DNA of 22,547 nucleotides from positions 1-22,547 of IMG/VR virus record IMGVR_UViG_3300046836_000050; one strand, 5' to 3'. Within the stretch, counting starts at the first letter, position 1, and the number at the start of each line of letters is the position of its first letter. A program made the translations under genes and the position numbers. Source of the stretch: a virus. Of this stretch, positions 1,419 to 21,144 are shown piece by piece. Under the pieces are notes generated by a model, which was given only the letters and a program-made list of their open reading frames with translations, was not told the DNA's origin and did no database searches.

Positions 1419-1940
1419 TCAGGTTGTCTCATAGATGATGTGCGCATCGGCAAGACCGGACACGCCACCTGCGGATGAACTATTCCACAAAATACTGCCG
1501 CCGCCGGGAGCCGTATTGCCGACCATCGTCCATTGCTGCGTGGGAGCTGCGTTCCATCTGATGATGCCACCAAACACGTTGATCCCGAGTTCAAGTTTGG
1601 CATCCGTGGTCGCATTGGATGGAATCACCTGGTTGGTTGCGTAGGACACGGCAGGAACCACGGGAGCCGCCAAGGCTGCAGTTGCAAAGTGCATCGGACC
1701 ATCCGAATTTTGCGCTGCTAGCGCGCCGACGGTGCCGGTTCCTATGCTGCCTTGTCTCGCAAGATATGTTGCCAATACCGCTGCGGTGCCGGCCTTGCCT
1801 GAGATCATGACCTCCAGCACATCGGTTATCTGTGTCGCTGAAGCACCTGTCAGCGCCATGTAGCCGCCCGACGTGGCCTGCGAACCGGCTGCAGTCGCGG
1901 CAAAGGTCAAGTTGCCTGAAGTGAATACTCTTTTAGCCAT
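1419..1940 (-). CDS. Small virion-type structural protein, unknown
   Basis: A 173-residue protein (MAKRVFTSGNLTFAATAAGSQ...) rich in Ala, Gly, Thr and Val, with alternating beta-like segments and no cysteines, membrane segment or enzymatic motif. The composition resembles small beta-sandwich proteins that decorate phage tails or fibres. A good SD (GGAGG, eight bases before the ATG) supports the start, and the gene overlaps the end of the zinc-ribbon gene by eight bases. It sits directly upstream of the fibre gene, so a tail or fibre-associated role is plausible. I do not recognise a named family; the structural role is inference. Confidence 0.55.
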   Translation of the reverse strand: MAKRVFTSGNLTFAATAAGSQATSGGYMALTGASATQITDVLEVMISGKAGTAAVLATYLARQGSIGTGTVGALAAQNSDGPMHFATAALAAPVVPAVSYATNQVIPSNATTDAKLELGINVFGGIIRWNAAPTQQWTMVGNTAPGGGSILWNSSSAGGVSGLADAHIIYETT

Positions 1941-2313
1941 CTGAGTGGCCTCCAGTTCTGGTTAGGGTTGGGCGGTGCATAGAACCGCTCAGGACATACT
2001 TTCCGCTGGCCACCATCTCCTTGATTTGCTCGATGGTCATGTGGACGTAATTCGGCTCACGCCGGACAGCATCGCAGCCGTCGCAGATGTAGGCATTGCA
2101 CTGGTAGCAGTGCGCGCGCTCGCGCGTGCGCAATGGGTTCATGACGACACACGACCCGCAGTGCGGACAGCCCAGCGTCGGTGCCTCGAAGATGGCACCC
2201 TCCTTGACTTGCTCGGGAGCGTAGCCAAGCCTGCGGGCAATCTCTGCGGGAATACCGGGCGAGGCTCTATGGTCGACGAGGATCTCGCCGTCTCGACTCT
2301 TCTTGCTGAACAT
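1933..2313 (-). CDS. Zinc-ribbon protein
   Basis: A 126-residue protein with a central cysteine-rich segment. Cys49-x2-Cys52 (CPHCG), Cys69-x2-Cys72 (CYQC) and Cys77-x2-Cys80 (CDGC), with further Cys55 and His51/His68, should coordinate one or two zinc ions in ribbon-like knuckles. The N terminus (MFSKKSRDGEILVDH) is followed by a helix-type segment, AEIARRLGYAPEQV, and the C terminus carries a helix, TIEQIKEMVASGKYVL. The start ATG shares one base with the TGA of the upstream gene (TGATG). Zinc ribbons in phage late operons can be DNA-binding or protein-contact modules; nothing here decides between them. Presence of the zinc site is well supported, function is not. Confidence 0.6.
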   Translation of the reverse strand: MFSKKSRDGEILVDHRASPGIPAEIARRLGYAPEQVKEGAIFEAPTLGCPHCGSCVVMNPLRTRERAHCYQCNAYICDGCDAVRREPNYVHMTIEQIKEMVASGKYVLSGSMHRPTLTRTGGHSDG

Positions 2314-2723: not shown

Positions 2724-2885
2724 TTACTTCTCCTCTGCTTTGCTGGGTTCAATCTTTTCTTCTCTCCCGTCATGGAAGATCTTGTAGTCGCCATCCGCTT
2801 TGCGGCGGACGATGTAGACCTTGCTATCGTCGATGCTCAGGCTTCCGCGGCCACCGAAAGTATCGCCTCGCTTTTCGTCTGGCAT
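2724..2885 (-). CDS. Small charged hypothetical protein
   Basis: A 53-residue, strongly charged protein (MPDEKRGDTFGGRGSLSIDD... ending EPSKAEEK). I choose the ATG at 2883-2885 because a clear SD (GAGGAG, five to six bases upstream) precedes it; a longer reading from an ATG at 2909 lacks this. The first 49 bases overlap the 3' end of the methyltransferase-glycosyltransferase gene in another frame. A likely small beta hairpin is visible (KVYIVRRKADGDYKIFHDG). No family is recognised. The strong SD and tight packing suggest it is real. Confidence 0.5.
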   Translation of the reverse strand: MPDEKRGDTFGGRGSLSIDDSKVYIVRRKADGDYKIFHDGREEKIEPSKAEEK

Positions 2886-4732
2886 TGTCTCTCCTCGTTC
2901 TGCAGCCAAAGCGCCTTGGTGTGCTGCATGATGGTTTCGACGCTGATGTCAGAGATGCACGCCGTTCCTGTGTTGTCGGAATTCGGCGTGCAATAGGGCG
3001 GGAATTGCCCCTTCTCTGCGTTATGCAGACAGTGACATGGCCAACATGGGACTTTCTGCTGATCGGCGTGCAACGTCACGGTATTGATCCAGTGCTTGGT
3101 GGTGTTCTCCGGCGAGGCATGCCCGAGCAGCATGATCTTTGGCACCGGATCCATCGCCACGCTCCACATCAGTCCGGTATCGGGACCGATCACCAGATCG
3201 CTGACGGCGCACATTGCCAGCGCGCGTCGGATCGGCCAGTCGATCGCGCCATTGCCATGCGTGATGGCGATGTGCAGGCCCTTGGAAGAGCCATTGGTAT
3301 TGATGATGTACTGCTCGACCTGCCTGGCGGTTTCCAGATTGCGATCGGGATCGCCGAGCATGACGACAGGCACCTCCATCTCGTTGATGATGCGCGCCAC
3401 CAGCGCGCCCAGCCTGGGATGTGTCTTGTCGACCCGCGAGCCCGACATGGCGATGGCGATGCAGCGTTCGCCGACCTTGGCCTTGGTCTTCATGATGTCT
3501 TCGTATTCGCTCGGATGCAGATAAAACAACGGCCCGAAATCATAGCCGCAGCCGGCGATATCGAGCACCATCTCGAGGTAACTCTTGTTGGCGATCTTGC
3601 GTCGCACGTGCGCCGGCCAATGGAATTGCGTCATCTCGGGGAAGAAGGCCAGTGAGGACTCGCAGGAATGCGACAGGTGGCAATAGACGTCATACTCGTC
3701 GGCTCGTCCCCTGTGCCATTTCTGCCAGCCACCCATGTCACTCGGCATCTCCGAGCGCGTCTTCACCGACAACTTGTCGATGTTTGGGTTATACAAAAAC
3801 ACCTGCCACGCCGCTTCGTGCGAGGTGATCATCTCGACCTTGAGCCCCTTGCGCTTGAGCGCGTGAGCAGCAGCGCAGGCCATCAGATTGTCGCCGATAC
3901 CGCCGAATCTAGCGATGCCGGCCCAGCCGTTGCACAGTTTGACGTGCTGCGGCAGTTGCTGCGCGCGGCCATCCTCACGATCATAGGACGACACCACGCG
4001 GCGCAAGCCCGAAGTTTGTTTGATGGTAACGCCCATCGGCACGCACAGCATGTTGATGGTGTTGCAGCCGACCAGGACATTCTCTTTGTGGCCGCGAAAA
4101 TTATTCGGGTTAAATAATTTTGGCGCGTGCCAATACATCTCGTATTCCAGTTCGCGGAGCAGCGTGATCAGCGCCACTGATTTCTGCAGCCGGTCGTTCT
4201 CGACGTACAGGATCGGCTTGCAGCGCTTAAGTGTCTCCGCAGCACCGCGCAGAACATCAGCCTCCATGCCCTCGACGTCGACCTTGATGAAATGACACTT
4301 GTCGAGGTTGAAACTATCGAGTGTAGCGACCTTGACGTCATCGCCCAGCGTCAGCGTGCAGCCGCCAAAATCACCGATCTTCTCGTAATCCGTTTTTGCT
4401 ACGCCGGCCGCGCCGAAGGCGGCGCCGAGCGCCATGTTTTTCGCCGTGACATTCTCGAGATCATTCTGCGCGATGTTCTCTTTCAGCAGTTCAAACATGC
4501 GCGACTGCGGCTCGAAGGCGTATAGATGCCCGGCCTTGCGCGCCAGAGGAACGACGGTGCGGCCCAGGTTGGCGCCGACATCGACGACGGTGTCGCCTTC
4601 CTCGAACAGCGAAAGCATCAATTCGGTCTGGATCTCTTCGATCTCGCCGTAGAGTTCTAGCGCTCTTGCATTGTAGGCATCTGTCTCCAGCAGCGTAAGT
4701 TTGCCGTGTTTGAAGTCGATCGTCTTTTTCAT
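2837..4732 (-). CDS. FkbM-type methyltransferase fused to GT9-type glycosyltransferase
   Basis: A 631-residue two-domain enzyme. Residues about 1-235 are a class I SAM-dependent methyltransferase of the FkbM type, with SAM-binding VVDVGANLG (49-57), the acidic strand end FEP (73-75) and the typical KVDVEGMEADVLRGA segment (150-164). Residues about 270-610 resemble glycosyltransferase family 9 (ADP-heptosyltransferase-like): the GGIGDNLMA loop (278-286), the donor-site PDTG (517-520), and a following strand and HASPEN motif (538-543). A CWPCHC cluster (563-568) and further Cys near 581 and 592 may bind metal or be structural. FkbM enzymes O-methylate sugars or small molecules and GT9 enzymes add sugars to LPS, so the fusion may build or cap a methylated glycan on host LPS or on the phage's own fibres. 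The start ATG overlaps the TGA of the collar-fibre gene (TGATG), with an AGGA SD. The two domain calls are strong; substrate is unknown. Confidence 0.8.
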   Translation of the reverse strand: MKKTIDFKHGKLTLLETDAYNARALELYGEIEEIQTELMLSLFEEGDTVVDVGANLGRTVVPLARKAGHLYAFEPQSRMFELLKENIAQNDLENVTAKNMALGAAFGAAGVAKTDYEKIGDFGGCTLTLGDDVKVATLDSFNLDKCHFIKVDVEGMEADVLRGAAETLKRCKPILYVENDRLQKSVALITLLRELEYEMYWHAPKLFNPNNFRGHKENVLVGCNTINMLCVPMGVTIKQTSGLRRVVSSYDREDGRAQQLPQHVKLCNGWAGIARFGGIGDNLMACAAAHALKRKGLKVEMITSHEAAWQVFLYNPNIDKLSVKTRSEMPSDMGGWQKWHRGRADEYDVYCHLSHSCESSLAFFPEMTQFHWPAHVRRKIANKSYLEMVLDIAGCGYDFGPLFYLHPSEYEDIMKTKAKVGERCIAIAMSGSRVDKTHPRLGALVARIINEMEVPVVMLGDPDRNLETARQVEQYIINTNGSSKGLHIAITHGNGAIDWPIRRALAMCAVSDLVIGPDTGLMWSVAMDPVPKIMLLGHASPENTTKHWINTVTLHADQQKVPCWPCHCLHNAEKGQFPPYCTPNSDNTGTACISDISVETIMQHTKALWLQNEERQCQTKSEAILSVAAEA

Positions 4733-5709
4733 CAGAGCTTCCTGTAGTACGTGCCGGGAATAGAGATCGGGACGTTGTTGTGCGCGCTGCCGCTGCCGCT
4801 AGAACCAATGGTGCCGCTCGGTGTCCCGCCAGAGACACTAGTTGTGGTGGATGTATTGCCGCCGGATGTCACGGACGTGATGACCGTTCCGCCCGAACCA
4901 AGCACGGCGTTATTGGTAGTGAAATTGAAACCATGGCTATGGGCGCTCAGGGCATCGCCGGAAAAGGTATGTCCGTGCGCCGGCATTTCCGCCGTAGTCG
5001 TGACGTGCGTATTCTCGCCGATTACCGAAGCCGCCGTGAGTGCATCACCTACAATGGTTGGCGCACTACTCAAGCGCCCAGCACTGCTGTTGCCCATATT
5101 GTCGAGCCCAACCAGAAATGCGCCGCGGCGATCGGGTGTGTGGATGCGCTTATTGGCGGTCCAGTCTGATAGCGACGATCCTCCGCGCCCACCATCCACC
5201 GGACAAATTGCGTCGATAAAATTATTCCAGAGAAACTCGAACAATGGCTGGCATGCTGCTACGTTGCCGCCGGGCTCGTTTGCACCCGAGGAGGCCGAGC
5301 CAATGGTATTGCCATTGTCGCGTACCCAGCCGGTGCGCGTACCTTGCCGATCGAGCCACATGACGTCGCCGGTCTGGAAGATCGCGGTAGCGTCGACACC
5401 ACCGGATGGCGCCGCGCCTGCGGAGGCGCCGAGAGCCAGAATTGTCTGCTGGTCGAAATAGGTGATCGCACCATCTGAGCTCGTGGCCCGCGCCCGGTAG
5501 GAGCCGTCGGCCAGCCAGAATTGCCGCATCATCCCGTAGGCGTCGGCCGGGATCGGCCAGGGATTGAGCACGGTCAATGCCGTGTCCTGATAGGAATTGA
5601 CTGGCGTCGAGGTATTGGCTTGGTAGAGATATAAAAGCCACCCTACCGAAGGGATGCCGTTTAAATCCACACGCTGCGAGAGCGGAAGGCCAAAAATAGT
5701 GCCAGCCAT
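4732..5709 (-). CDS. Tail-collar-like fibre protein
   Basis: A 325-residue protein. The N-terminal part (1-100) has a virion-attachment look (VGWLLYLYQANTSTPVNSYQD, then FWLADGSYRARATSSDG). The middle (about 114-215) follows the phage tail-collar pattern: GDVMWLD, GWVRDNGNTIGS, LFEFLWNNF and a TPDRRGAFLVGLDNMG loop. Further on are metal-ligand-type HGH (245-247) and HSH (257-259), as in short tail fibres of the T4 gp12 type, then a Ser/Thr/Gly-rich run (271-309) and the ending AHNNVPISIPGTYYRKL. It is likely a receptor-binding fibre. It lies 28 bases after the gp16-like gene and is translationally coupled to the sugar-modifying enzyme that follows. Collar-like identity is fairly sure; the receptor is unknown. 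Confidence 0.72.
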   Translation of the reverse strand: MAGTIFGLPLSQRVDLNGIPSVGWLLYLYQANTSTPVNSYQDTALTVLNPWPIPADAYGMMRQFWLADGSYRARATSSDGAITYFDQQTILALGASAGAAPSGGVDATAIFQTGDVMWLDRQGTRTGWVRDNGNTIGSASSGANEPGGNVAACQPLFEFLWNNFIDAICPVDGGRGGSSLSDWTANKRIHTPDRRGAFLVGLDNMGNSSAGRLSSAPTIVGDALTAASVIGENTHVTTTAEMPAHGHTFSGDALSAHSHGFNFTTNNAVLGSGGTVITSVTSGGNTSTTTSVSGGTPSGTIGSSGSGSAHNNVPISIPGTYYRKL

Positions 5710-5737
5710 TGTTCTCTACCTTGCTGCCGTGATGCTG

Positions 5738-7612
5738 TTAGCGGCCTGGCCGTGGAACCTGTTGCTGGTTCTCATCGGCCTGGGCATTCGATGGGCTCTC
5801 CACCGTCGAGCGTATGATCTGTTGCGGCGTCAACGTGGTGCCCAAAGTGCCGTTGATGGTGTTGGCCAGTTCACCAGAGGTGCGTTGGAACGCCGCCAGT
5901 CCAGCCGGCGTCGGCCGTGCGGCGACAGTCTGGTAGACGCGGGCCCAGCGCGCCAGAGAGGCAGCGGTGGATGGCGCGGCCAGAATGCGGGCCATGATAT
6001 TGTTGCCAACCATGCCACCGATGGCGAGTGCCGGCGGAATGAGCGCCTTTGGACCCAACGTCGCCACTGCACCCAGGCCGCCGAAGATCGAGGCTATTGT
6101 CGTATAGAAGACCTGATGACCGGCGGTGCCGGATGTATTTGCGAGTTTCCCAGCCTGAACGAAACGCTCGCTTACATGCGCAATGTCGTCAAGGAATTGA
6201 ATGACCTGGCCGGAGCCGACGCTGCCGAACAGCACCCGCTTTCCCGTATCGCTCAGCCTGGCATAGTCGTTGAGAAAGATGGCCGGGCTGAAGGCCCCCT
6301 TTCTATCGCGCCCTAGTGTTGCGATCGCGGTCGAGGCAACATCCTGCCACACTTCTGGCGGCACTGCCGCCCGGGCCGCAACCAGGCCAGCCTGATCAGC
6401 GCTGGACCCCGTACCCGCCATGCGCACGATAGCCTGATAGACGCCCTCGCTGGAGCGTGTGCTTGGCCCGACGACCTTGCGCAGTCCCTCCTTCAAGTCG
6501 GCAATGCCTGCTGCCATCTTGTTGGCGCGTTCGAAAGCGATTGCCGCGCGTGGTCCTCCGGCATTGATCACCGAGGTGCGCAGATCGTCCGACAGCGTGC
6601 CGTAGATCCGCCGCAGCTCACCTTCGGAGAAACCCTCCGGCAGAATGCCGGTGTCGAGCAGTTCACCTATATTCGTGCGTAGATCCTTGATGCCGCTGTA
6701 GGTCAGGCCGCCCGGTCTATTGACGGCCTCGCCGACCAGATCAGCGGCACGTCCTGCACCCGGCAAACCGGCGGCCGCGCGCCGCGCGGCGATATCGGCA
6801 ACCGCAGCACCTGTGGCCTCAAGCGGCTGGGTACGGTTTGGATCAAGCAGACGTTCTACCGCGCCGTAGGCTTGCGATGTCTCACCGGCCACTCGCGGCT
6901 TGAACACCTTCTCGACGCCCTGCACAAAGCCTTGGCCGGCGAGCGCCGGATCTACCGCACCGCCTGCCAGATCCGCCGCACTGCTGACCTTACCGCCGAG
7001 CTGCTCGATCGACTGCGGGATTGCCTCCTGTAGGGGGCCGCCGCCTGGCACCTTGGCAATCGCCTGACCGGCAAAGCGGACCAGGGGACTTTCTGTGGCG
7101 ATCGCCCGCGGCACCTCGGTGCCGAGCCGCTCGGCCGCCTGGATTGCTACAGGTGCCGCCTTGGAAACCATAATGTTGCCGGGGCCCATCATGGTGCCGG
7201 CCATGCGACCGGTAGCCGACAGCACACCTTCATCTGTCGCTGGCGTGCGGGCGTAGACCTTGCGCGTATTGTCGGCCGGATCAGTCAGTACGACGTGCTT
7301 GTTCTTATCGGTAAGTACGAATTGCCCGTTGGCATCCTTGTAGCCGACATTGCCCAGTTCATCCTCTGTGGCTGGGCCTAGAAAATTAGGCGCCTGCGCC
7401 GAAATAACCGGCGTTGTTCGCTGCCCGGCCGCTTGCTGCTGCGCCATGAAGCCGGGATAGATCTCCTGTACTGCCTTAGCTGCGCTCTGCAGGAAGCCTT
7501 CCGGCTGCGGGGTTCGTGATGCAGCAAACGCCGCCGCATCACGCGGGTCTATTCCCTGCGATTGCGGCTGTTGCTGCTCAAATGCAGCAAGGTCGGCCGG
7601 ATCGATTGGCAT
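5738..7612 (-). CDS. Ejection-type internal virion protein (position of P22 gp16)
   Basis: A 624-residue protein of mainly helical, Ala-rich character. It begins with two short similar Asp-Ala-Ala-Phe blocks (DPADLAAFEQQQ and DPRDAAAFAASR) and ends Gln-rich. A hydrophobic stretch at about 505-545 (GGLGAVATLGPKALIPPALAIGG) could insert in or cross a membrane, as expected for proteins injected with the genome. It is third in a run of 255, 500 and 624 residues after the gp10-like hub, matching the order and sizes of P22 gp7, gp20 and gp16 (229, 471, 609). No lysozyme or peptidase motif was seen. Its start overlaps the stop of the 500-residue gene (TAATG). The ejection role is inferred from position, size and the membrane-like segment, not from a recognised domain. 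Confidence 0.5.
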   Translation of the reverse strand: MPIDPADLAAFEQQQPQSQGIDPRDAAAFAASRTPQPEGFLQSAAKAVQEIYPGFMAQQQAAGQRTTPVISAQAPNFLGPATEDELGNVGYKDANGQFVLTDKNKHVVLTDPADNTRKVYARTPATDEGVLSATGRMAGTMMGPGNIMVSKAAPVAIQAAERLGTEVPRAIATESPLVRFAGQAIAKVPGGGPLQEAIPQSIEQLGGKVSSAADLAGGAVDPALAGQGFVQGVEKVFKPRVAGETSQAYGAVERLLDPNRTQPLEATGAAVADIAARRAAAGLPGAGRAADLVGEAVNRPGGLTYSGIKDLRTNIGELLDTGILPEGFSEGELRRIYGTLSDDLRTSVINAGGPRAAIAFERANKMAAGIADLKEGLRKVVGPSTRSSEGVYQAIVRMAGTGSSADQAGLVAARAAVPPEVWQDVASTAIATLGRDRKGAFSPAIFLNDYARLSDTGKRVLFGSVGSGQVIQFLDDIAHVSERFVQAGKLANTSGTAGHQVFYTTIASIFGGLGAVATLGPKALIPPALAIGGMVGNNIMARILAAPSTAASLARWARVYQTVAARPTPAGLAAFQRTSGELANTINGTLGTTLTPQQIIRSTVESPSNAQADENQQQVPRPGR

Positions 7613-10139: not shown

Positions 10140-11363
10140 CTAGAAATATGTACCGCCGTTTGATGTGGTGCCAGCTACGGTACCGGGAATAAAATTTGGA
10201 CCGCCGCCAAACGTCATGATGTCGGCGGCATTATCAGAAGCATAGCGCTTGCCGGTGACGGTGTGCCCGGCAAGATTGAATGTCACGCCGCCAAGATTCA
10301 GCCTGCCGGCCTGTTGCACGAGGGCCACCGTATTGTAGGTGACGTTCGCCGAGAACGAGACGGTCGCGCCTTGGAAGGTTATGTAGCCGGTGTCCTGCGC
10401 CGCGAACAGATAGCCATTGCCGCCAGCGGGACTGTCGCTGACCGTAATCCCGCTCGCACCATTGATAATCTGGCCGCCCAGCCAGGAGCGCAACTGCAAT
10501 CCACCGGCGGCGCAGGTGCCAAGGGAAACACCATTCAACAGATGCAAGATGGACCCGCTTTCAACGGAAACGAGCCCGGGCGCAACACTGTCCTGCAGCA
10601 GAAGATTTTCAATTTGCAGGATCGCACCGTCAAATAATGAAAGCGGCCGCGTCGAACTGTCTCCGGCCCATACCACGTTGCTGGGTGTTGTGGCATTGCC
10701 GGTAACGCGCACTGTGGCATTGCCGGCCATGCCAACCATTGGCCCGGGCAGATGCAGGCCGCCGCTGTGCGTACCGTCGGCCAATTGAACGAGCACTTGC
10801 GGCGCGGCTTGCGCGTACAGGTCGAATTGATCCTGTGCGACCCGGGTGATGGCAAAATTTATAGTCTGCAGGGCATTGCCGGCACCGGCGGCCAATCCAT
10901 CGTTGGCATCATTCCCGCTGACCGGGTGGACGTAGAGCGTGATCGGTCCCGTATCGATCGTCGTCTTCCAGCGCGTCCGTCCCAATACGCGCCAGCCATC
11001 GTCTATGCTGCGTACGACAACTGACTGTCCAGGCCACAGGATAAAATCAAAATCGCCATTCTCGGCCGTCAGATGCTTTCCGCGCCCGCCAGCCTGGTAC
11101 ACGTCTGAATTAATTACGGTAATAAAAAAGCCGTCTCCTATGGCACTATTCGGAAACAACAATGGGTAGAAGGCATTGCCGGCGAGGACGATCACCGAGC
11201 CGGAATCGCTGGCTGAAATCGTATAGCTACCGGTTACTATATTCGGCGCGCCTCCGCGCACCGTATCGGAGAGCGACTTGATCCAGTTAAAAAAATCCTT
11301 GCTCGGCTTGCCGGTTTTTTCGTCGACGTAATTGGCGACGATGTCGGGCGGCGGCAGCAGCAT
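10140..11363 (-). CDS. Beta-helix spike / tail protein (pectin-lyase-like)
   Basis: A 407-residue protein that looks like a tail spike or appendage. Residues 1-35 (PPPDIVANYVDEKTGKPSKD) look like a virion-attachment end, and 40-130 form a beta-rich cap domain. From about 143 the entry motif LYVHPVSGNDANDGLA, typical of right-handed parallel beta-helix (pectate-lyase-fold) proteins, is followed by repeated short strands (GAILQIENLLLQD, SILHLLNGVSL, TGYITFQGATVSF) to the end. It may bind or cleave a surface polysaccharide; catalytic acids cannot be assigned by eye. The start overlaps the TGA of the gp10-like gene (TGATG), with an AGGA SD. It lies where P22 encodes its needle (gp26). Confidence 0.68.
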   Translation of the reverse strand: MLLPPPDIVANYVDEKTGKPSKDFFNWIKSLSDTVRGGAPNIVTGSYTISASDSGSVIVLAGNAFYPLLFPNSAIGDGFFITVINSDVYQAGGRGKHLTAENGDFDFILWPGQSVVVRSIDDGWRVLGRTRWKTTIDTGPITLYVHPVSGNDANDGLAAGAGNALQTINFAITRVAQDQFDLYAQAAPQVLVQLADGTHSGGLHLPGPMVGMAGNATVRVTGNATTPSNVVWAGDSSTRPLSLFDGAILQIENLLLQDSVAPGLVSVESGSILHLLNGVSLGTCAAGGLQLRSWLGGQIINGASGITVSDSPAGGNGYLFAAQDTGYITFQGATVSFSANVTYNTVALVQQAGRLNLGGVTFNLAGHTVTGKRYASDNAADIMTFGGGPNFIPGTVAGTTSNGGTYF

Positions 11364-12802
11364 CAGTAGTTCCTGATCTCGGCGCTCATCTTGCCGCCAG
11401 TCAATTCGACGTCGACAGGATCAAACACCTGCACGCGGAAACGTCGTCCCTGGTCCTTGGTCTGTCCGACACGATTGACCCGCACTGGAAACATCGACGT
11501 TGCCTGCCGTCCCAGTTTACGCTGGATCGGCGTCGACCAGTTCATGCCACCGTCATCGGTCCACGAGATATACACCCGAGGATCGGTCTGGATCGGATCC
11601 GTTCCGGTCGCCCGCCCTACTCCGCGCGCTACGTCGATCGTCACCTGCGACACCCGCAGACGATTGGGAAATGCCGTCACCGGCCCCGAGTAGATATCGA
11701 AGGGAATGTCCTGGCCGAGCTCGGTCTGCACCTGCTCGGTGATCTGCAGAATATTGGCCGAGGTCGTATCTCCGGCCAGCCACTTACCGAAGGCATTAAC
11801 CGAAGCGTAGGCACGCCACGTCTGCTGCAAATAAGATTGTCGTTCGTGCCAGCGCAACCGATCGACATCAAAGGCCCATGTCGCTGTCGGCATGCGCAGC
11901 ACGGCATAGGAATTGCCGTTGGCGACGTAGGGAAACATCTCGATATCGTCAGCCAGTCCGCCGCCGTCGACGAACGAAGAGATGGCGCGATCAACATCCG
12001 GCGTCGAGATCGCCGTCGGCGTATAGCCGTTCAGCGCATAGACCTTGCGATCGTCGCCGACAAAGATCAGTCCCTTGCCGAAGCCGGGCTCGTAGCCAGT
12101 GACGGCGTAGCGCCCGAGTAATCCTCTTGGGATCACCTTGACGCGCGTGAACGGGAACGCCGTCGGGTTGGCCGTATTCTGCCACGGCTCGATGGTGTGC
12201 GAGCCCATCAAATACAATTCGCCAAACGGGATGGCGCGCAGCAGGCCACCGGGATTGCCGAATACGCGGATAAAATCGAGCGGGTTGATCGCCGTGTCAT
12301 TAATGGCTGATGCGATACAGGTGCCGTCGCCGCTGGTGAAGAAGAAATAGCCGTCGAGAAAGCACACCGAGTTAGGCGCACCGACATCGACGTCGGGATA
12401 GTTGATCACGCTCGGCGCCGTCGTCACTTGAAAGGCGCCGTTGTCGGGATCGACCAGCACCACGTCGGGCGGGCTCTTGTTATTGCGCGCCCAGAATATT
12501 TTCTTGGTACCACCGAGCGATCCGAGCAGCGTTTCGGTACCTGACGAAGTGTAGCTCGCCACCTTGCCGGCAGAGCCGGTGAACGCTGCATAGAGCAGCG
12601 AGCCGATGACGATACCGCCGCGCCAGCCTGTATAGGTCGAGAGTTTGAATGATGTCAGGCCTGGCGCCCTGCGCCACACGGTTTGCGAGCGCGCACCATT
12701 GACCAGATCCTCGGCGTAGCAATTGATCAGGCGTCCGGCCGAGTCATGTACGTTCTTTCCCGGTGCCGAAGTAACCGGGAAGGGGATCGCGGCCTCTGGC
12801 AT
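11363..12802 (-). CDS. P22 gp10-like packaged-DNA stabilisation / tail hub protein
   Basis: A 479-residue protein (P22 gp10 is 472) with the family's features: an N-terminal APGKNVHDSAGRLINCYAED segment, repeated beta-propeller-type strands (GWRGGIVIGSLLYAAF, VVLVDPDNGAFQV, VCFLDGYFFFTSGDG, ELYLMGSHTIEPWQN), and a C-terminal beta domain ending in RRFRVQVFDPVDVEL. In P22 this protein closes the portal vertex and forms the hub on which spikes and needle assemble. It follows the gp4-like adaptor with only the small Pro-rich gene between, as in P22-type phages, and is translationally coupled to the next spike. The call is strong on length, motifs and position. Confidence 0.85.
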   Translation of the reverse strand: MPEAAIPFPVTSAPGKNVHDSAGRLINCYAEDLVNGARSQTVWRRAPGLTSFKLSTYTGWRGGIVIGSLLYAAFTGSAGKVASYTSSGTETLLGSLGGTKKIFWARNNKSPPDVVLVDPDNGAFQVTTAPSVINYPDVDVGAPNSVCFLDGYFFFTSGDGTCIASAINDTAINPLDFIRVFGNPGGLLRAIPFGELYLMGSHTIEPWQNTANPTAFPFTRVKVIPRGLLGRYAVTGYEPGFGKGLIFVGDDRKVYALNGYTPTAISTPDVDRAISSFVDGGGLADDIEMFPYVANGNSYAVLRMPTATWAFDVDRLRWHERQSYLQQTWRAYASVNAFGKWLAGDTTSANILQITEQVQTELGQDIPFDIYSGPVTAFPNRLRVSQVTIDVARGVGRATGTDPIQTDPRVYISWTDDGGMNWSTPIQRKLGRQATSMFPVRVNRVGQTKDQGRRFRVQVFDPVDVELTGGKMSAEIRNY

Positions 12803-13961: not shown

Positions 13962-15113
13962 TCACGTGTCGCTGACACTGGCAAAGAAGCCGGTGAACAC
14001 GCCCCAGTCCTTCAGCAGAGCCGAGGTGTTCTTGGCAACCTTGCCGATGCCGTAGGCCATCTCGATGCCGACGCCACGGTTGAAGCCATAGTCGGTCTGA
14101 TCGAGTTGGGTCGGGCGCGGCAACTGCCCGTAGAACTGGGCTACCGCCGATTGTCCACACAGCGCGGCAATATTGACCGCAATGCCGCCAGCGCCGGCCG
14201 TGGCAAAGTAGACTGGACGTCGGGTCAGCATCTCCGGCACTTGGCGGACGATTATCCCGTCGTACAAAATATCGCCGTCATTGAACAGCGGGTTTTCCTT
14301 GTAGCGGTTCTCGCGCGGACGCGAGTACAGGTTGGCGTTGAGGATGGTCTGATCGTTGGACAAATCCCTGAATTGGTTGGGATCACAGAAACAGATCCAA
14401 TAATCGTAGCCATCATTGTCCTGGTATGGACGAATACGCGGCACCGCCAACATGGCGCGACGTTTCATCAGCCGCAGCGAGGCTGCGGTCAATTTGTCCG
14501 TCGTGTTGTCGACGTTGGCCAACGATGCGATGGTGGCACCGGTATTATTGCTGATCGACGCGCCGAACAGAACACGATCGACATTGGCAGTCAGCCACAC
14601 GTCTCTTTGTCCGGTACCAGCCGTTGCAGTAGCTGTCTGCCAGTTGACACCGTTGACGCGCTGACCTGCTGCAGAACCCAAGCCAGCGGGGGCAATTTCG
14701 AGCGGGATCGAGAAGAACGAATCGACGATCTCGTTCTTGATCAGTTCCTTGCCCCAGTCTGTGAGAAGCGGCCGGGCGATATCGAAGATATCCGCACTGT
14801 CGCGGTGATCTTCCTGCCGATTTGTCTTCACGGCATTGCGCGCCCAGTCGATGTACATCCTGAAGCCGTAGTTGTCGATCGCCTCTTCGGCACCGGTCAG
14901 GGTGCCGTTGGCAATCGCCGTTGCGCGCAGCGAGTTGACGAGCGGGACGTTGACCTGCTCGCCACCGGATTTGAGGTCATTGAGCACGCGGATGACCGAG
15001 TTCATCGACGAGCCCATGTACGGCGAGAACATATTCTGCCGCACGAATTCGCGAGTTATCTCTTCGCGAAAGACGATGAGTTTATTGTTAGCCTGGACTT
15101 GAGTAAGCGCCAT
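13962..15113 (-). CDS. Major capsid protein, N4-gp56-like
   Basis: A 383-residue major capsid protein with the N4-gp56/DUF4043 family look: an N-terminal FREEITREFVRQNMFSPYMG, then a SGGEQVNVPLVNSLRATAIA strand, GAEEAIDNYGFRMYIDWARN followed by a basic segment, a long central beta domain with DNDGYDYWICFCDPNQFRDL, and a C-terminal YGFNRGVGIEMAYGIGKV strand typical of HK97-fold coat proteins. It sits directly after the scaffold-like gene, with a strong GGAGG SD eight bases upstream. The gene should be among the most highly expressed of the operon. P22 coat is about 430 residues and N4 gp56 about 400, so length fits the latter. The coat identity is strong; family choice is from motif memory. 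Confidence 0.85.
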   Translation of the reverse strand: MALTQVQANNKLIVFREEITREFVRQNMFSPYMGSSMNSVIRVLNDLKSGGEQVNVPLVNSLRATAIANGTLTGAEEAIDNYGFRMYIDWARNAVKTNRQEDHRDSADIFDIARPLLTDWGKELIKNEIVDSFFSIPLEIAPAGLGSAAGQRVNGVNWQTATATAGTGQRDVWLTANVDRVLFGASISNNTGATIASLANVDNTTDKLTAASLRLMKRRAMLAVPRIRPYQDNDGYDYWICFCDPNQFRDLSNDQTILNANLYSRPRENRYKENPLFNDGDILYDGIIVRQVPEMLTRRPVYFATAGAGGIAVNIAALCGQSAVAQFYGQLPRPTQLDQTDYGFNRGVGIEMAYGIGKVAKNTSALLKDWGVFTGFFASVSDT

Positions 15114-16403: not shown

Positions 16404-18890
16404 TTAGTTGCTCTGTATGATTTCCCAGGTAGTGCCGTTGGCCGTCAACTCGGCCCACTTGCCAGCCGTAGCAGCAAGGATTGCCGTAGCGGCGGCACCG
16501 CCGATAAGCGGGATTACGTTGGCCGATGCAGAGACGACCGTGAAGGCCTGGATGGTTTTGATCTTGATGGTGCGGCCGTTATAAAGCGCTGCCGAGGGCA
16601 GCGTGACCGTACAGGTCGAGCCCTTGTTGACGATGATGAAATTCTCCAACAGGCCGACAGTGAAGTCCGCCGTTTTTGTCACCGCCTTCGCGGCGCCGGA
16701 GACAATCTGGATGGCGAGCGGCTGCGATTTGATCGTTGCGCCAGTGAAGACAGTTGTCTTGTTACCGGAAAGATTACCGGCGTTTATATTATCGCCCCTG
16801 CCAACCGTAAAATACCCGAGCCCACTATAGACCCCAGTCACATAGTAGAAAACATCGGTCGCGCCATCGAAGAGTTTGATGCCCAAGCCAGGAAACATGA
16901 GTTCGAGTGTCCGGTCATTGGCATAGACAGCGAAACCTGCGCCCTTGTAGTTCCAACTCAACGAAGGGACGTTGGTGGTCGTGAGGTCTTGCCCATAGGT
17001 ATAGAATTGATGATTGCTGACAATCTCGGTGGCTGACTGCGCCACGCCGTTAAACCAGTTATCGGCAACGGTATAGATCTGGTTGCCCAACAATATTGGA
17101 TAGTCGACATGCCAATTACCGCCGCTGTAGGCGATCGTTGGCAACGGACTGACCGCTAAAGTATTTTCCAGATTGTCCCGGGTAATGAGCGGTCGCGACC
17201 ATGGCGCAGGACGGTAGCCCCAAGTCGGAGCCTTTCCCGGCTCTCTTGCGCGCAGAATGTCGCCGGAATTGAATTTGTTAGGGTAACTTGTAAATGGCGT
17301 AACGTCATACTCCCCCCTGCCGAGATCTGTCTCATTCTGTGATCTCACTCCGCGACGAATATTGATGGGACCAAACTGCGCATTCTCCCGCATAATCAAC
17401 CTCCCATCCTCGCCCGACTCCACATCGACGATGACAGGATCAAAGCCGTTAATGTATTGCCCCAGTTGCGAGCCCTGAATGGTTACATTCGATGCCGTAG
17501 CGTCCAGCCAGATAAAGGGCCATGATTGCTGAATGTAGTACTTCGCTATGTTGTCGGACGGGTCAGGTGAAGCCCTCAAATCAAACAATGACGGATTGAC
17601 GTTGAATTGTATTGCATTCAACGTAGACGGGTTCTTCCCACCAAAACCTTCACCGGCACGAATAAGCGTCATCGGTGCGTAGGCATTCTCGCTATGAGCG
17701 CCGTAGACCTGGATGCCGTTGCCCCAGAACGTGGTGACACGCTCGGCACAATAAACCCTCGGGACTACTTGCACCTCTGCTGAAAGATCGGTGCCAGTGA
17801 CGGCATTGAATTGTGAAAAGAATTGATGACACCAGACCGGCAACATCTGGAAAGTGCCTACACCTGTGCCGGAGTTATATGCACTCAGAGTTAACGGAAT
17901 GATGCCGAAGTGCGCGGTTTTTATTGCATATGAGTTGTAGACATTGCCGACAAAGACATCAGGGCTGACAACAGTAGCAATGAAACTGTAGAGAAAGTCA
18001 TTGCCGTCCGCTGTTGCGGTGACGGGTTGAATGGATGTGAGATTGAAGCATGCCGACAGGCTGTTGTTATTCGACCAGTTGCCACCAAAGACACGGCAGC
18101 CACTGGAGAAGCCGTTGAATAGACAGACCGTGGCCTCGTTCGGATTGCAGTCATAGAACGAGTTGATGTAATTTTGTGTCCCAGCAATCCAGAACCCATA
18201 ATAGACATTCCCGGTGAAGCATTTTACGAAAGTATTGCTGTCGCACAGCGTTCCGTTGCCATTGGCGGCGGTCTTGAACCCGGTATAAAGACCGTACACC
18301 TCGCAATTTTCGATCCACGCCCGCGACGATCCTCCTCCAGTGCCGGTCAGGCCAATGCCGACGCCGTTTGGATCCTGTTTGCCCCGCCAATCGAAGGATA
18401 TGGATTGCCCTATGATCTTGAGATTGGCCACCGTCATGCCTTGCCCGGGGCCGACATAGAGCACTACGTCGTTCTTGAAGGTCGGGCGAATGAAGGTGCC
18501 GAAGTTATTCTGGTTACCCTGTCCAACCTCGCCGATCAGCGAAAGCGAGAATTGATAGTTGGCTGGATTGGATAGATTCTGTCTCAAGCCACCTGGCAGG
18601 CCTGGTGGAATATAGGGCGGGTCGAGGTAGAGCGGTGACGTAGTCTTGTATGTCCCACCCGGCATGTAGATCGATTGCTTGTTGTTGGCGCCGGCATAGT
18701 CGATCGCCGCCTGGATCGCCGCGGTGTCGTCGGCGATGCCGTCGCCAACGGCCCCGAAGTCCTTGACGTTCACCTGCTCGCCAAACCGAGTAGCCAGTGT
18801 CCTGGTCGTGGTCGAGCCTGTTGCGGTGACCAGGCCCTGCTCCAACAGCAAAGTTGGGATCGGGAATGCCGTAAAGTCAGGTGTCGGCAT
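16404..18890 (-). CDS. Tailspike with pectate-lyase-type beta helix
   Basis: An 828-residue spike. After a short N terminus, residues 41-82 carry the pectate-lyase-3 entry motif NVKDFGAVGDGIADDTAAIQ followed by a MPGGTYKTT strand, common to phage polysaccharide depolymerases and lyases. Repeated short strands typical of a right-handed beta helix fill about 100-520, and a beta-rich trimerisation or binding region follows. The C-terminal 90 residues (GRTIKIKTIQAFTVVSASAN, then TAGKWAELTANGTTWEII) are a capping domain widespread in phage fibres. Probable role: cleaving or binding capsule, EPS or LPS. Unusually, it sits between portal and scaffold genes. Composition in the middle is more A+T rich than its neighbours. 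Enzymatic residues were not assigned. Confidence 0.8.
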   Translation of the reverse strand: MPTPDFTAFPIPTLLLEQGLVTATGSTTTRTLATRFGEQVNVKDFGAVGDGIADDTAAIQAAIDYAGANNKQSIYMPGGTYKTTSPLYLDPPYIPPGLPGGLRQNLSNPANYQFSLSLIGEVGQGNQNNFGTFIRPTFKNDVVLYVGPGQGMTVANLKIIGQSISFDWRGKQDPNGVGIGLTGTGGGSSRAWIENCEVYGLYTGFKTAANGNGTLCDSNTFVKCFTGNVYYGFWIAGTQNYINSFYDCNPNEATVCLFNGFSSGCRVFGGNWSNNNSLSACFNLTSIQPVTATADGNDFLYSFIATVVSPDVFVGNVYNSYAIKTAHFGIIPLTLSAYNSGTGVGTFQMLPVWCHQFFSQFNAVTGTDLSAEVQVVPRVYCAERVTTFWGNGIQVYGAHSENAYAPMTLIRAGEGFGGKNPSTLNAIQFNVNPSLFDLRASPDPSDNIAKYYIQQSWPFIWLDATASNVTIQGSQLGQYINGFDPVIVDVESGEDGRLIMRENAQFGPINIRRGVRSQNETDLGRGEYDVTPFTSYPNKFNSGDILRAREPGKAPTWGYRPAPWSRPLITRDNLENTLAVSPLPTIAYSGGNWHVDYPILLGNQIYTVADNWFNGVAQSATEIVSNHQFYTYGQDLTTTNVPSLSWNYKGAGFAVYANDRTLELMFPGLGIKLFDGATDVFYYVTGVYSGLGYFTVGRGDNINAGNLSGNKTTVFTGATIKSQPLAIQIVSGAAKAVTKTADFTVGLLENFIIVNKGSTCTVTLPSAALYNGRTIKIKTIQAFTVVSASANVIPLIGGAAATAILAATAGKWAELTANGTTWEIIQSN

Positions 18891-18893
18891 CTA

Positions 18894-20864
18894 TCAGCCG
18901 AACTGGCGCGCGCCCGGCGGTACGCCGGGGAATGGCAGTACGCCCTGTCCTGCGAAATTGGACGGCACGTCGCCCGCGGGCGTGGCCACGCCAGGGACCG
19001 GACCATAACCGGGCGTCGGGCCTACGGGTACGCCCGGTCCCTGCGGGCTCGGCGCGGGCTGGGCAGCTGACGCGCCGGAGGCCTGTTGTACCGCACCGAA
19101 GGCATCGATCCCGAGCTGCGCCGCCTCGAGCTGTGCGTCGATACCCAACTTCTGCGTCTGCGCGACGTTCTTCACCGTCTCTGACTTTGTCTTATCGATC
19201 TTCGCTGCTTCTCCAGCCAGGGCTATTTGCTTGGCCTGTTGCTGCTGCGGATCCTGCGCCGCCGCCTCCATCTGCTTGAGAAGTTTCTGCTTCACACTGT
19301 TCTGCAGCGGCGCCAGCTCGATCAGCACATTGGGTGGGATCGATTGACCACCGCGCACCAACGCCAACAACGTATCGTAGGCATCCGCCATCATGTTGAT
19401 GTTGTCCGGGCCCTCGTCGATGATGATGTCGACGTCGAGGCTCCCCAGGTAGTTGGCGATCGCCGGCTGTCCGTACTGGTCTGTCGTTAGTCCATTAACC
19501 TGGATGAACTGCGCGACGCCCTCATCGTCGGTGACCCTGATCCAGCGCTCGGCCTGCCAGTGTCGGGAGACGACATTCCATATTCCGCGATAGACCCGCA
19601 TCTTCCAGGTACGATAGGCCAGGATATAGGGCCCGAGCTCGGCAATCCCCGCCTGCTGCAGCAAATTGATGGCGCGACCTGATGAGCCCTCGACGCCCTG
19701 TCCCAGCAATGCCGGGTTGGGTCCGAAGTTTTCGATCTCGGTCTTCGCCTCCTGCAGCATCTGCAATTGCCCGGCAAAATCCGCCTGCTGGTTTTCCGGC
19801 GCCACTTCCTTGCCGGGATTCTTTTCGATCAATCCATCCGGCCGCGCCCATTCGATACGCGCCTTCTCCACGTCATCGACCGCGCCCTTGTCCATGATCA
19901 AGCGACGTGAATTGAGAATGTGCAGCGCCTTGGACCGACGATGATTGATCTCGTCCTGCGGGCCCTTGAAGTTTCTCACAAACCCATAGCGGTCGCCGTC
20001 ATGATCGACCGCGGCGGAAAACATGATGAACTTGGAGAAACTTTTCCCCCGTTCATCGATGTAGGGGCTGTGTCCCTGCATCAGGATCGTGTTGCCGACG
20101 TACAATGCCCAGCACCAATGCCCTTCATGGATGTACCAATGGTCCACCATGCGCAATTTCTTCGCCGTGGTGTTAACCCACATGATCTCGCGATCGGAAT
20201 AGGATGTGAGGTCTGTGCCGCTCTCGCTCAGCCCGCCAATTTCATCCTTCTTGGCCGGCACCAATTCCTTCGCCTGCTCGGTATCGATCCACTTGGAGAT
20301 GCCGAGAAAGCGCGCGTCGGTAAAGCCGTCGTCATACGAGCGCGGGTCGTAGAAAAACGTATCCGGGTAGACCAAATGCAAATCAATGTCAGGATCGCCG
20401 TGGTCTCCATAGGCTAGATCAATCTCGATCCCGCCCAAGCCATCGACCGCGGCCATTCGCGCGGCGCGTGCCGACTTGGAATTCCAATCGACATGATCCA
20501 CCGCATAACGCAACACCGCGGTTGCCACCTCGGCGCCCTGCTCGGAATTCGGATTACGCGGATAGGCCTTGGGATCCTGTTTTAATCGCTCGACCAATCC
20601 CACAACCGCATCGACCTTGCGCACGATACGGTTGGATGTGATCACCGGCTGCCGTCTTCGTTTCAGCGCTTTGATTTCCTTGTCGGTCCATTGTGCCCCA
20701 TGATAGTAGCGCCGCGCCTCCTTCGCCTCCTCGATCTCCGGGCGCTTGTTGCCGACGTAGTCATAGTACTGCCGCTTCAATTGCTCGACGGTGTAATAGC
20801 CTTCCTCATCCACTTGCGGCGTGTCGATCGGCGCGTTGGCCTGCGGGATATTTGAGTCAGCCAT
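18894..20864 (-). CDS. Portal protein, P22 gp1-like
   Basis: A 656-residue portal protein of the P22 type. The N-terminal segment YYHGAQWTDKEIKALKRRRQ, then PVITSNRIVRKVDAVVGLVE, is diagnostic of the family, and the DHDGDRYGFVRNFKGPQDEI and INHRRSKALHILNS segments further on match the portal stem region. The C terminus (from about 560) is helical, then Gly/Pro-rich. P22 gp1 is 725 residues. I use the ATG at 20862-20864 (MADSNIPQAN); an upstream extension to 20924 uses a non-conserved, cysteine-rich stretch with no start signal. A modest AAAGG lies about ten bases upstream. The portal forms the dodecameric ring through which DNA is packaged and ejected. Confidence 0.88.
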   Translation of the reverse strand: MADSNIPQANAPIDTPQVDEEGYYTVEQLKRQYYDYVGNKRPEIEEAKEARRYYHGAQWTDKEIKALKRRRQPVITSNRIVRKVDAVVGLVERLKQDPKAYPRNPNSEQGAEVATAVLRYAVDHVDWNSKSARAARMAAVDGLGGIEIDLAYGDHGDPDIDLHLVYPDTFFYDPRSYDDGFTDARFLGISKWIDTEQAKELVPAKKDEIGGLSESGTDLTSYSDREIMWVNTTAKKLRMVDHWYIHEGHWCWALYVGNTILMQGHSPYIDERGKSFSKFIMFSAAVDHDGDRYGFVRNFKGPQDEINHRRSKALHILNSRRLIMDKGAVDDVEKARIEWARPDGLIEKNPGKEVAPENQQADFAGQLQMLQEAKTEIENFGPNPALLGQGVEGSSGRAINLLQQAGIAELGPYILAYRTWKMRVYRGIWNVVSRHWQAERWIRVTDDEGVAQFIQVNGLTTDQYGQPAIANYLGSLDVDIIIDEGPDNINMMADAYDTLLALVRGGQSIPPNVLIELAPLQNSVKQKLLKQMEAAAQDPQQQQAKQIALAGEAAKIDKTKSETVKNVAQTQKLGIDAQLEAAQLGIDAFGAVQQASGASAAQPAPSPQGPGVPVGPTPGYGPVPGVATPAGDVPSNFAGQGVLPFPGVPPGARQFG

Positions 20865-20867
20865 CGA

Positions 20868-20896
20868 TTGACATACCTTTATGCACAGTGAATAAT
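20868..20896 (+). promoter_or_regulatory. Near-consensus sigma70-type promoter, forward strand
   Basis: TTGACA (20868-20873) is followed after exactly 17 bases by AATAAT (20891-20896), matching the housekeeping consensus at 11 of 12 positions with optimal spacing. It points away from the portal gene and would begin transcription about 14 bases before the ATG of the small forward ORF at 20917. Found by eye; activity is not shown. Confidence 0.55.
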
Positions 20897-20916
20897 TGAC
20901 CGAGCAGGCTATATTT

Positions 20917-21144
20917 ATGGTCAAACGCTTCAGCGATAGCGGCGAGAGCTGGTGGCATGAGCCGCCTTATACGCCGGAGGAAGAAGATGAACTGGCGCAC
21001 GCCATAAATGCGCCACCGGTTACTGTTGCGCGGGCTCCTTCACAGCCTGCACCAAAAGATAGCCATCGATCACCATCATTGCGGTGGAGGCGCTTGCGCT
21101 TGCAGGACGCTGCCCATGGTCGGCCCAGCCATCGAGCCAACTAG
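20917..21144 (+). CDS. Small forward-strand protein, possible moron
   Basis: A 75-residue ORF, the only credible gene here against the operon direction. The first 45 residues look like real protein (MVKRFSDSGESWWHEPPYTP, then an acidic EEEDELAHAI helix); the last third is basic and overlaps the 3' end of the 442-residue gene by 69 bases on the other strand. I choose the ATG at 20917 rather than a TTG at 20896, because that TTG falls inside the promoter's -10 box. A weak AGCAGG lies upstream. With its own near-consensus promoter inside a late operon, it resembles a phage moron expressed independently, possibly in a lysogen. Function unknown. Confidence 0.45.
   Translation: MVKRFSDSGESWWHEPPYTPEEEDELAHAINAPPVTVARAPSQPAPKDSHRSPSLRWRRLRLQDAAHGRPSHRAN
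21020..21079 (-). CDS. Possible 19-residue coupled peptide
   Basis: A tiny ORF (MMVIDGYLLVQAVKEPAQQ) whose ATG overlaps the TGA of the 442-residue gene in an ATGA junction, the same junction type used elsewhere in this operon. It has no SD and is shorter than most real genes. It lies opposite the forward small ORF, so at most one of the two readings may matter. Reported because the junction is suggestive. Confidence 0.2.
   Translation of the reverse strand: MMVIDGYLLVQAVKEPAQQ

Follow-up and report, generated by a model that had tools for sequence, protein, structure and literature searches.

We find that one clade in a family of phage-encoded GT9 glycosyltransferases, which in the virus studied here takes the form of an FkbM methyltransferase-GT9 fusion, has one constant genomic partner, the gp80 fibre. 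Among the loci of the clade that contains our virus (clade A), 53 of the 58 with enough sequence carry a gp80-type gene (PF23140) on the same strand and no more than 4 kb downstream, at a median gap of 246 nt from the GT9 gene, compared with 0 of 24 loci in the sister clade (clade B); of 52 viral FkbM loci that lack GT9, 3 contain gp80. Drawing on this linkage, we propose that the fusion is a late-expressed accessory enzyme which would glycosylate and O-methylate a fibre of the phage's own virion, a reading to which we assign a probability of about 0.52. The likelier substrate would be gp80, with the collar fibre encoded just upstream as the second candidate.

Results

Genomic setting of the fusion gene

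The window (the whole 22,547-nucleotide stretch of DNA analysed) has a P22-like gene order, running from portal, spike-like, scaffold, coat, adaptor, stabilisation and ejection genes to the collar fibre, the enzyme, gp80 and the tail genes (Table 1). Its virion proteins are closest to those of the Pseudanabaena phages Pan3, Pam1 and Pam5, and the virus is an uncultured, soil-type, P22-like podovirus. The original prediction placed the enzyme inside a virion operon and this is what we see, with portal, coat, stabilisation, ejection and fibre genes all on the enzyme's strand. The spike-like gene (828 aa, 16404-18890, minus strand) appears by eye to have a pectate-lyase-type N-terminal region, and its position between portal and scaffold is unusual for a P22-like gene order. 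In phage CBW1004C-Prop1, an annotated sulfotransferase gene (L010:23512-24042) lies between the coat-like gp46 gene and the gene for the DNA-stabilising protein, and, in what is a related operon of virion genes, might encode another enzyme that modifies the virion.

Table 1. Features of the window discussed in the text.
Feature	Position	Strand	Remarks
Portal	18894-20924	-	P22-like order
Coat	13962-15113	-	Virion operon
Stabilisation protein	11363-12802	-	Virion operon
Collar-type tail fibre, 325 aa	4732-5709	-	Upstream of enzyme, translationally coupled (TGATG overlap)
Ser/Thr/Gly-rich collar-fibre tip	4786-4902	-	Residues 270-308; 79% S/T/G, 51% S/T
FkbM-GT9 fusion enzyme	2837-4732	-	631 aa, intact ORF, ATG start, 0 internal stops
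FkbM methyltransferase module	4007-4732	-	Residues 1-242; Pfam/TIGR core residues 48-198
GT9 (GT-B fold) glycosyltransferase module	2837-3949	-	Residues 262-631; model and profile matches
C-terminal four-cysteine finger	2957-3046	-	C563-x2-C566-x14-C581-x10-C592; conservation in 44 sequences
Small ORF, 53 aa from ATG 2885	2724-2885	-	Between enzyme and gp80, overlaps enzyme 3' end
gp80-family small fibre protein (PF23140), 136 aa	2313-2723	-	Conserved partner 3' of enzyme

The gene directly upstream of the enzyme encodes a collar-type fibre that matches the tail protein family phrog_8763 (3e-41) and the Pam5 tail fibre (37%). Its stop codon shares one base with the enzyme's ATG, the TGATG overlap that had been noticed from the sequence, and an AGGA lies 7 nt 5' of that ATG. 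The Ser/Thr/Gly run that had been predicted for this fibre (given as residues 271-309) is equally real. In the other two enzyme-bearing relatives the tip has an S/T/G fraction of 0.62-0.67, against 0.51 in two relatives without the enzyme, and over the last 75 residues Ser and Thr make up 31-35% in the three enzyme-bearing viruses and 21-24% in the two without. Ser/Thr enrichment of the tip may thus track the enzyme (3/3 versus 0/2), a pattern that, in five sequences, is suggestive only. Two related loci, L012 and L013, have collar fibres 68% and 63% identical to that of the window and are missing the enzyme, with a gp80-type gene 16-25 nt 3' of the collar fibre. By this comparison of gene orders the fusion gene is accessory, and because fibres this close lack the enzyme, the collar fibre can do without it; the coupling between the two genes, on which the original prediction leaned, is real as an overlap but carries less weight as evidence.

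On the other side of the enzyme, the window gp80 gene matches PF23140 at 8e-17 (62.2 bits, gathering score 27), and thus falls in the same family (gp80, or GP4 fibre I) as the gp80-family virion protein of podophage GP4 (PDB 8jou). The gp80 family profile matches 8jou, a 'virion-associated phage protein', at 8e-16, a match from which we take gp80-family proteins to be virion components. The small ORF between enzyme and gp80 gave no family match in domain and phrog searches. Directly after gp80, with a one-base overlap, comes a 126-aa protein (1933-2313, minus strand) with a CxxC-rich, zinc-ribbon-like stretch.

The fusion frame is genuine

The original prediction described one 631-residue frame holding both domains, and the ORF is indeed intact, with an FkbM half that is certain and a GT9 half that is real but remote. 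A rival view is that two genes were joined into this frame by a sequencing artefact, as the original prediction itself envisaged, or by a chimera, which would fit the fact that GT9 stands unfused to FkbM in most homologues (the loci with FkbM undetected or in a separate gene, counted below). The identical frame, however, occurs in a second assembly, IMGVR_UViG_3300046680_000213 (L001, a 31.9-kb contig), which differs from the window by 1 mismatch in 12.6 kb and by that measure is the same virus. Fusions of 627 and 632 aa with 62% identity to that of the window are found in two divergent relatives, L130 and L131, whose portals are 71-72% identical to the window portal; substitution between the window's fusion and these two (dN 0.31-0.33, dS 1.04-1.08) gives dN/dS of about 0.30, in a range of 0.22-0.30 for the conserved fusion. 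Both relatives retain the collar fibre 5' and gp80 3' of the fusion, and L131 also keeps the TGATG overlap, so that the same fusion beside fibre genes, proposed earlier as a check, does recur in other phages. Codon-position GC is moreover even across the whole frame. Because a second assembly and two 62% identical fusions carry the frame, we rule out the artefact, whose probability we regard as negligible even though the two halves are often separate genes. The L131 contig (G779:C1:11599-13611) has one in-frame TAG inside its portal match.

Identity of the two domains

The FkbM half lies above both curated cut-offs, with PF05050 at E 4.8e-16 (59.8 bits, cut-off 22.7) and TIGR01444 at E 6.8e-27 (94.7 bits, cut-off 37.7), and both motif I (VDVGANLG) and D-x-EGME can be read in the protein. 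On these matches, residues 48-198 are with certainty an FkbM methyltransferase domain. It differs from FkbM methyltransferases at large in being fused to GT9, and the FkbM members collected here have in common a C-terminal extension of about 40 residues. The full-length AlphaFold model of the fusion reaches a pLDDT of 65 overall and is poor in the FkbM half.

The GT9 half is more remote. The window protein itself matches PF01075 at E 0.0091 (15.8 bits, under the gathering score of 22) and TIGR02193 at E 0.0014-0.0043, and its weak NCBIfam matches are to heptosyltransferase I/II; the domain search suggested with the original prediction therefore finds PF05050 above its cut-off but leaves PF01075 below it. 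Scans with the single protein returned the window virus itself or nothing from IMG/VR and GTDB genomes, and there was no convincing relative of the GT domain in 50,697 isolated phage records or in plasmids. The wider GT9 family came within reach because one alphaproteobacterial prophage homologue (L024) was found, which matches the whole GT domain of the window and passes PF01075 at 9e-10 (38.7 bits). Its locus (G393:C9:67283-71233) holds the sole full GT homologue among 385 alphaproteobacterial genomes; the gene overlaps a phage tail protein gene (ATGA), and a head-tail connector gene is next.

A profile of 38 GT-half sequences matches the solved GT9 enzymes 3tov (5e-7) and 1psw (6e-6). The AlphaFold model of the GT half has a mean pLDDT of 91.4 and a pTM of 0.90, and a fold search with it ranks WaaF (1psw, Z 24.4), 3tov (Z 24.1), WaaC (2h1h, Z 19.9) and TibC (4rap, Z 19.8) among eleven GT9-like rows, after which scores drop to Z 13.6. 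Taken together, the homologues, the profile and the predicted fold establish residues 262-631 as a GT9 domain. With WaaF, WaaC and the uncharacterised 3tov, the modelled domain has in common a GT-B fold across its entire length, an N-terminal GxGD, a conserved Lys and a (D/E)TG donor region. It differs from them in sequence (12-17% identity), in its longer finger loops, in being fused to or beside a methyltransferase, in lying in virion operons and not in LPS loci, and in that the phage proteins form a branch of their own.

Methyltransferase-GT9 pairing and linkage to gp80

Scanning IMG/VR with GT9 motifs and adding the window and the prophage locus, we obtained 117 usable loci, or 89 after dropping those more than 90% identical. 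Loci that reach 38% identity to the window are counted as clade A (61 loci) and the remainder as clade B (28). A tree of the first scan (45 rows) unites the phage GT9 proteins in one group (support 100/99) and places the window inside a 7-row subclade (100/100).

Ten clade-A loci have FkbM fused N-terminal to GT9 and 1 (L180) has it C-terminal; in 13 a separate FkbM gene lies nearby, and in 37 FkbM is undetected, the last figure being an upper bound because only three sequences went into the FkbM profile. Of the 28 clade-B loci, 26 have a Methyltransf_11-type domain fused N-terminal to GT9. From these arrangements, a methyltransferase is evidently paired with GT9 repeatedly, with the FkbM-GT9 fusion as one form among several. 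The enzyme had been called an unusual bifunctional one; two domains are indeed fused, yet the fusion is not unique. A gene with DUF5672 lies nearby in 24 of the 61 clade-A loci and seems to be a third component of the cassette. The reverse order, GT9 then FkbM, is seen in L179-L181 (GT ORF 3968-5773), of which one is a phage contig of 83.6 kb and the other two are shorter, and at L031:3059-5663 two tandem DUF5672 copies, the second fused to FkbM, stand just upstream of the GT9 gene.

How should the linkage to gp80 be read? It is not built into the sample, because clade A was gathered by GT9 motifs and not by gp80, and all linkage counts run in the direction from GT9 to gp80. Nor does it appear to follow simply from one phage lineage. 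One search detected a portal of the window's type in 5 of 16 clade-A contigs, a figure that includes the window virus and no contig as long as 59 kb; a second search detected it in 0 of 8. These results indicate that the linkage spans different phage backbones. The number of independent linkage events must nevertheless be well below 58, since 27 of the 61 clade-A loci form one group with at least three common flanking ORF matches. We call the fibre the constant partner because clade-A GT9 recurs with a fused FkbM, a separate one or none, yet nearly always beside gp80.

The cysteine finger and the acceptor

Near its C terminus the GT9 domain has a four-cysteine finger in which C566, C581 and C592 are invariant and C563 is conserved in at least 90% of 44 sequences. 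The loops are of 2, 14 and 10 residues in the window and mostly 2, 9 and 10 in relatives (range 2, 9-14, 10); the window's lengths are close to those of the iron finger of TibC, with loops of 2, 15 and 11 (C-x2-C-x15-C-x11-C; PMC4358343). TibC and AAH, heptosyltransferases of the BAHT family (TIGR04414; PDB 4rap), provide a precedent for a protein O-glycosyltransferase with a GT9-like fold, although their autotransporter substrate is absent here. In hhalign comparisons, the phage family profile scores 66.9 with BAHT L078, 56.1 with a WaaQ-like protein and 34.7 with another bacterial GT9 protein. Loop lengths and hhalign scores weakly favour a protein over LPS as acceptor, while the fold comparison does not decide the matter, WaaF, an LPS enzyme, and 3tov ranking above TibC.

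We considered the finger as proof of a protein heptosyltransferase and dropped it as a deciding argument: of 30 bacterial GT9 proteins, 12 have a finger too, shorter and in most of these with loops of 2, 4 and 6. We also do not assign the phage enzyme to BAHT, because TIGR04414 is absent from the NCBIfam matches of the window protein (E up to 10) and the GT model has no N-terminal beta-barrel, starting at the Rossmann-like lobe with FkbM preceding it. TIGR04414 is likewise absent among the 25 families listed for 44 family members, and the tree, which has long branches, does not unite the phage family with BAHT. In the clade-B loci L046, L048, L052-L055, L059-L061 and L066 the first finger cysteine sits in an expanded CPGRGxNEAPAC loop and not in CxPC.

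Discussion

We picture the fusion as a soluble, two-domain, late-expressed enzyme that would modify one of the phage's own fibre proteins. On the virion mRNA its translation would directly follow that of the collar fibre and precede that of gp80, an order that is seen in the genes, with co-transcription presumed. The GT9 domain would use an activated sugar donor of the host, by analogy one of the ADP-heptose type, and place the sugar on Ser/Thr hydroxyls of a fibre, going by the linkage most probably gp80 and perhaps the Ser/Thr-rich collar tip. The fused FkbM domain, if it acts as its family does, would then O-methylate a hydroxyl of the attached sugar with SAM. Across clade A this is a modular cassette, GT9 with a fused, a separate or no FkbM, often with DUF5672 and nearly always beside gp80, and the phage might, speculatively, gain by a change in adsorption or by having its fibre masked. 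We propose gp80 as the main substrate because it stays when all else changes. Gene location and the gp80 linkage together support a protein over LPS as acceptor, and of the two roles offered by the original prediction, decoration of the phage's own fibre is the better supported, by way of gp80 more than of the collar fibre to which it had been tied. Counter-evidence comes from phages that have gp80 or the same collar fibre but no enzyme: besides L012 and L013, these are the isolates CRP-4 and MEP401, in which the neighbours of the gp80 relatives include no annotated glycosyltransferase or methyltransferase.

The other role then proposed, late modification of a host surface glycan such as LPS core, O-antigen or a lipid-linked sugar, we judge unlikely. 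Its purpose would be to shut out superinfecting phages or to keep progeny from being trapped on debris, and the linkage, which as such is co-inheritance, would reflect a gp80 that binds this glycan or has to avoid it; gp80 could, that is, read a host glycan that the enzyme makes. FkbM and GT9 families generally act on cell-surface or small-molecule glycans, the best solved fold matches of our domain are LPS heptosyltransferases, its weak NCBIfam matches are to heptosyltransferase I/II, and one clade-B locus (L054) adjoins a GtrB-like protein. Yet we recognised no flippase, bactoprenol transferase or sugar-nucleotide genes around the enzyme in the window, a late virion operon is an awkward place from which to change a receptor, and across many phage types the constant partner is one fibre and not one LPS gene. 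Lysogenic conversion is unlikely as a general role because a tyrosine integrase (the only type counted) is present in just 5 of 23 clade-A contigs and absent from 18, with the proviso that contigs may be incomplete.

More doubtful still is that enzyme and gp80 are accessory genes travelling together in a fibre-region hot spot, their linkage being hitch-hiking and the real target another virion protein, for example the capsid, or a small molecule. Relatives do differ in this fibre region of the window, clade-B enzymes adjoin head-closure, adaptor, head or tail genes without gp80, and the large group of clade-A loci with common flanking genes also fits. A loose hot spot would, however, hardly be expected to give linkage so frequent at so short a median gap, gp80 is rare beside FkbM genes without GT9, and portals related to that of the window were not found in many of the carriers.

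Modification of the phage's own fibre, which we continue to favour, would be no new category of activity, because mycobacteriophages such as Che8 and Rita encode glycosylation of their virion proteins, as reported in PMC11256854, which cites work on Che8. There, phage glycosyltransferases decorate virion proteins as is proposed here, with the difference that the targets there are major capsid proteins of actinophages and the candidate here is a fibre protein, with a methyltransferase built in. Within the open-access literature we found no papers on tail-fibre glycosylation, on DUF5672 with glycosyltransferases, or on FkbM in connection with auxiliary metabolic genes of soil viruses.

The gp80 linkage, nearly constant in about 60 diverse phages, suggests that they may decorate their own fibres with methylated sugars. 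More tentatively, and with somewhat less than even confidence, the genomic pattern may reflect a widespread phage system, as yet without a name, whose dedicated GT9 enzyme, often fused to or accompanied by a sugar O-methyltransferase and DUF5672, would O-glycosylate a receptor-binding fibre of the gp80 family. The contrast between clades A and B in their linkage to gp80 points to a specific candidate pair of enzyme and substrate and thus makes the idea testable. Phage tail fibres are usually thought to vary by sequence alone, and GT9 is known mainly for LPS heptosylation. If the proposal is true, how phages adsorb, which hosts they infect and how they escape recognition could hinge on fibre modification, receptor prediction from sequence would miss fibre glycosylation and methylation, and GT9 would gain a second protein-modifying branch.
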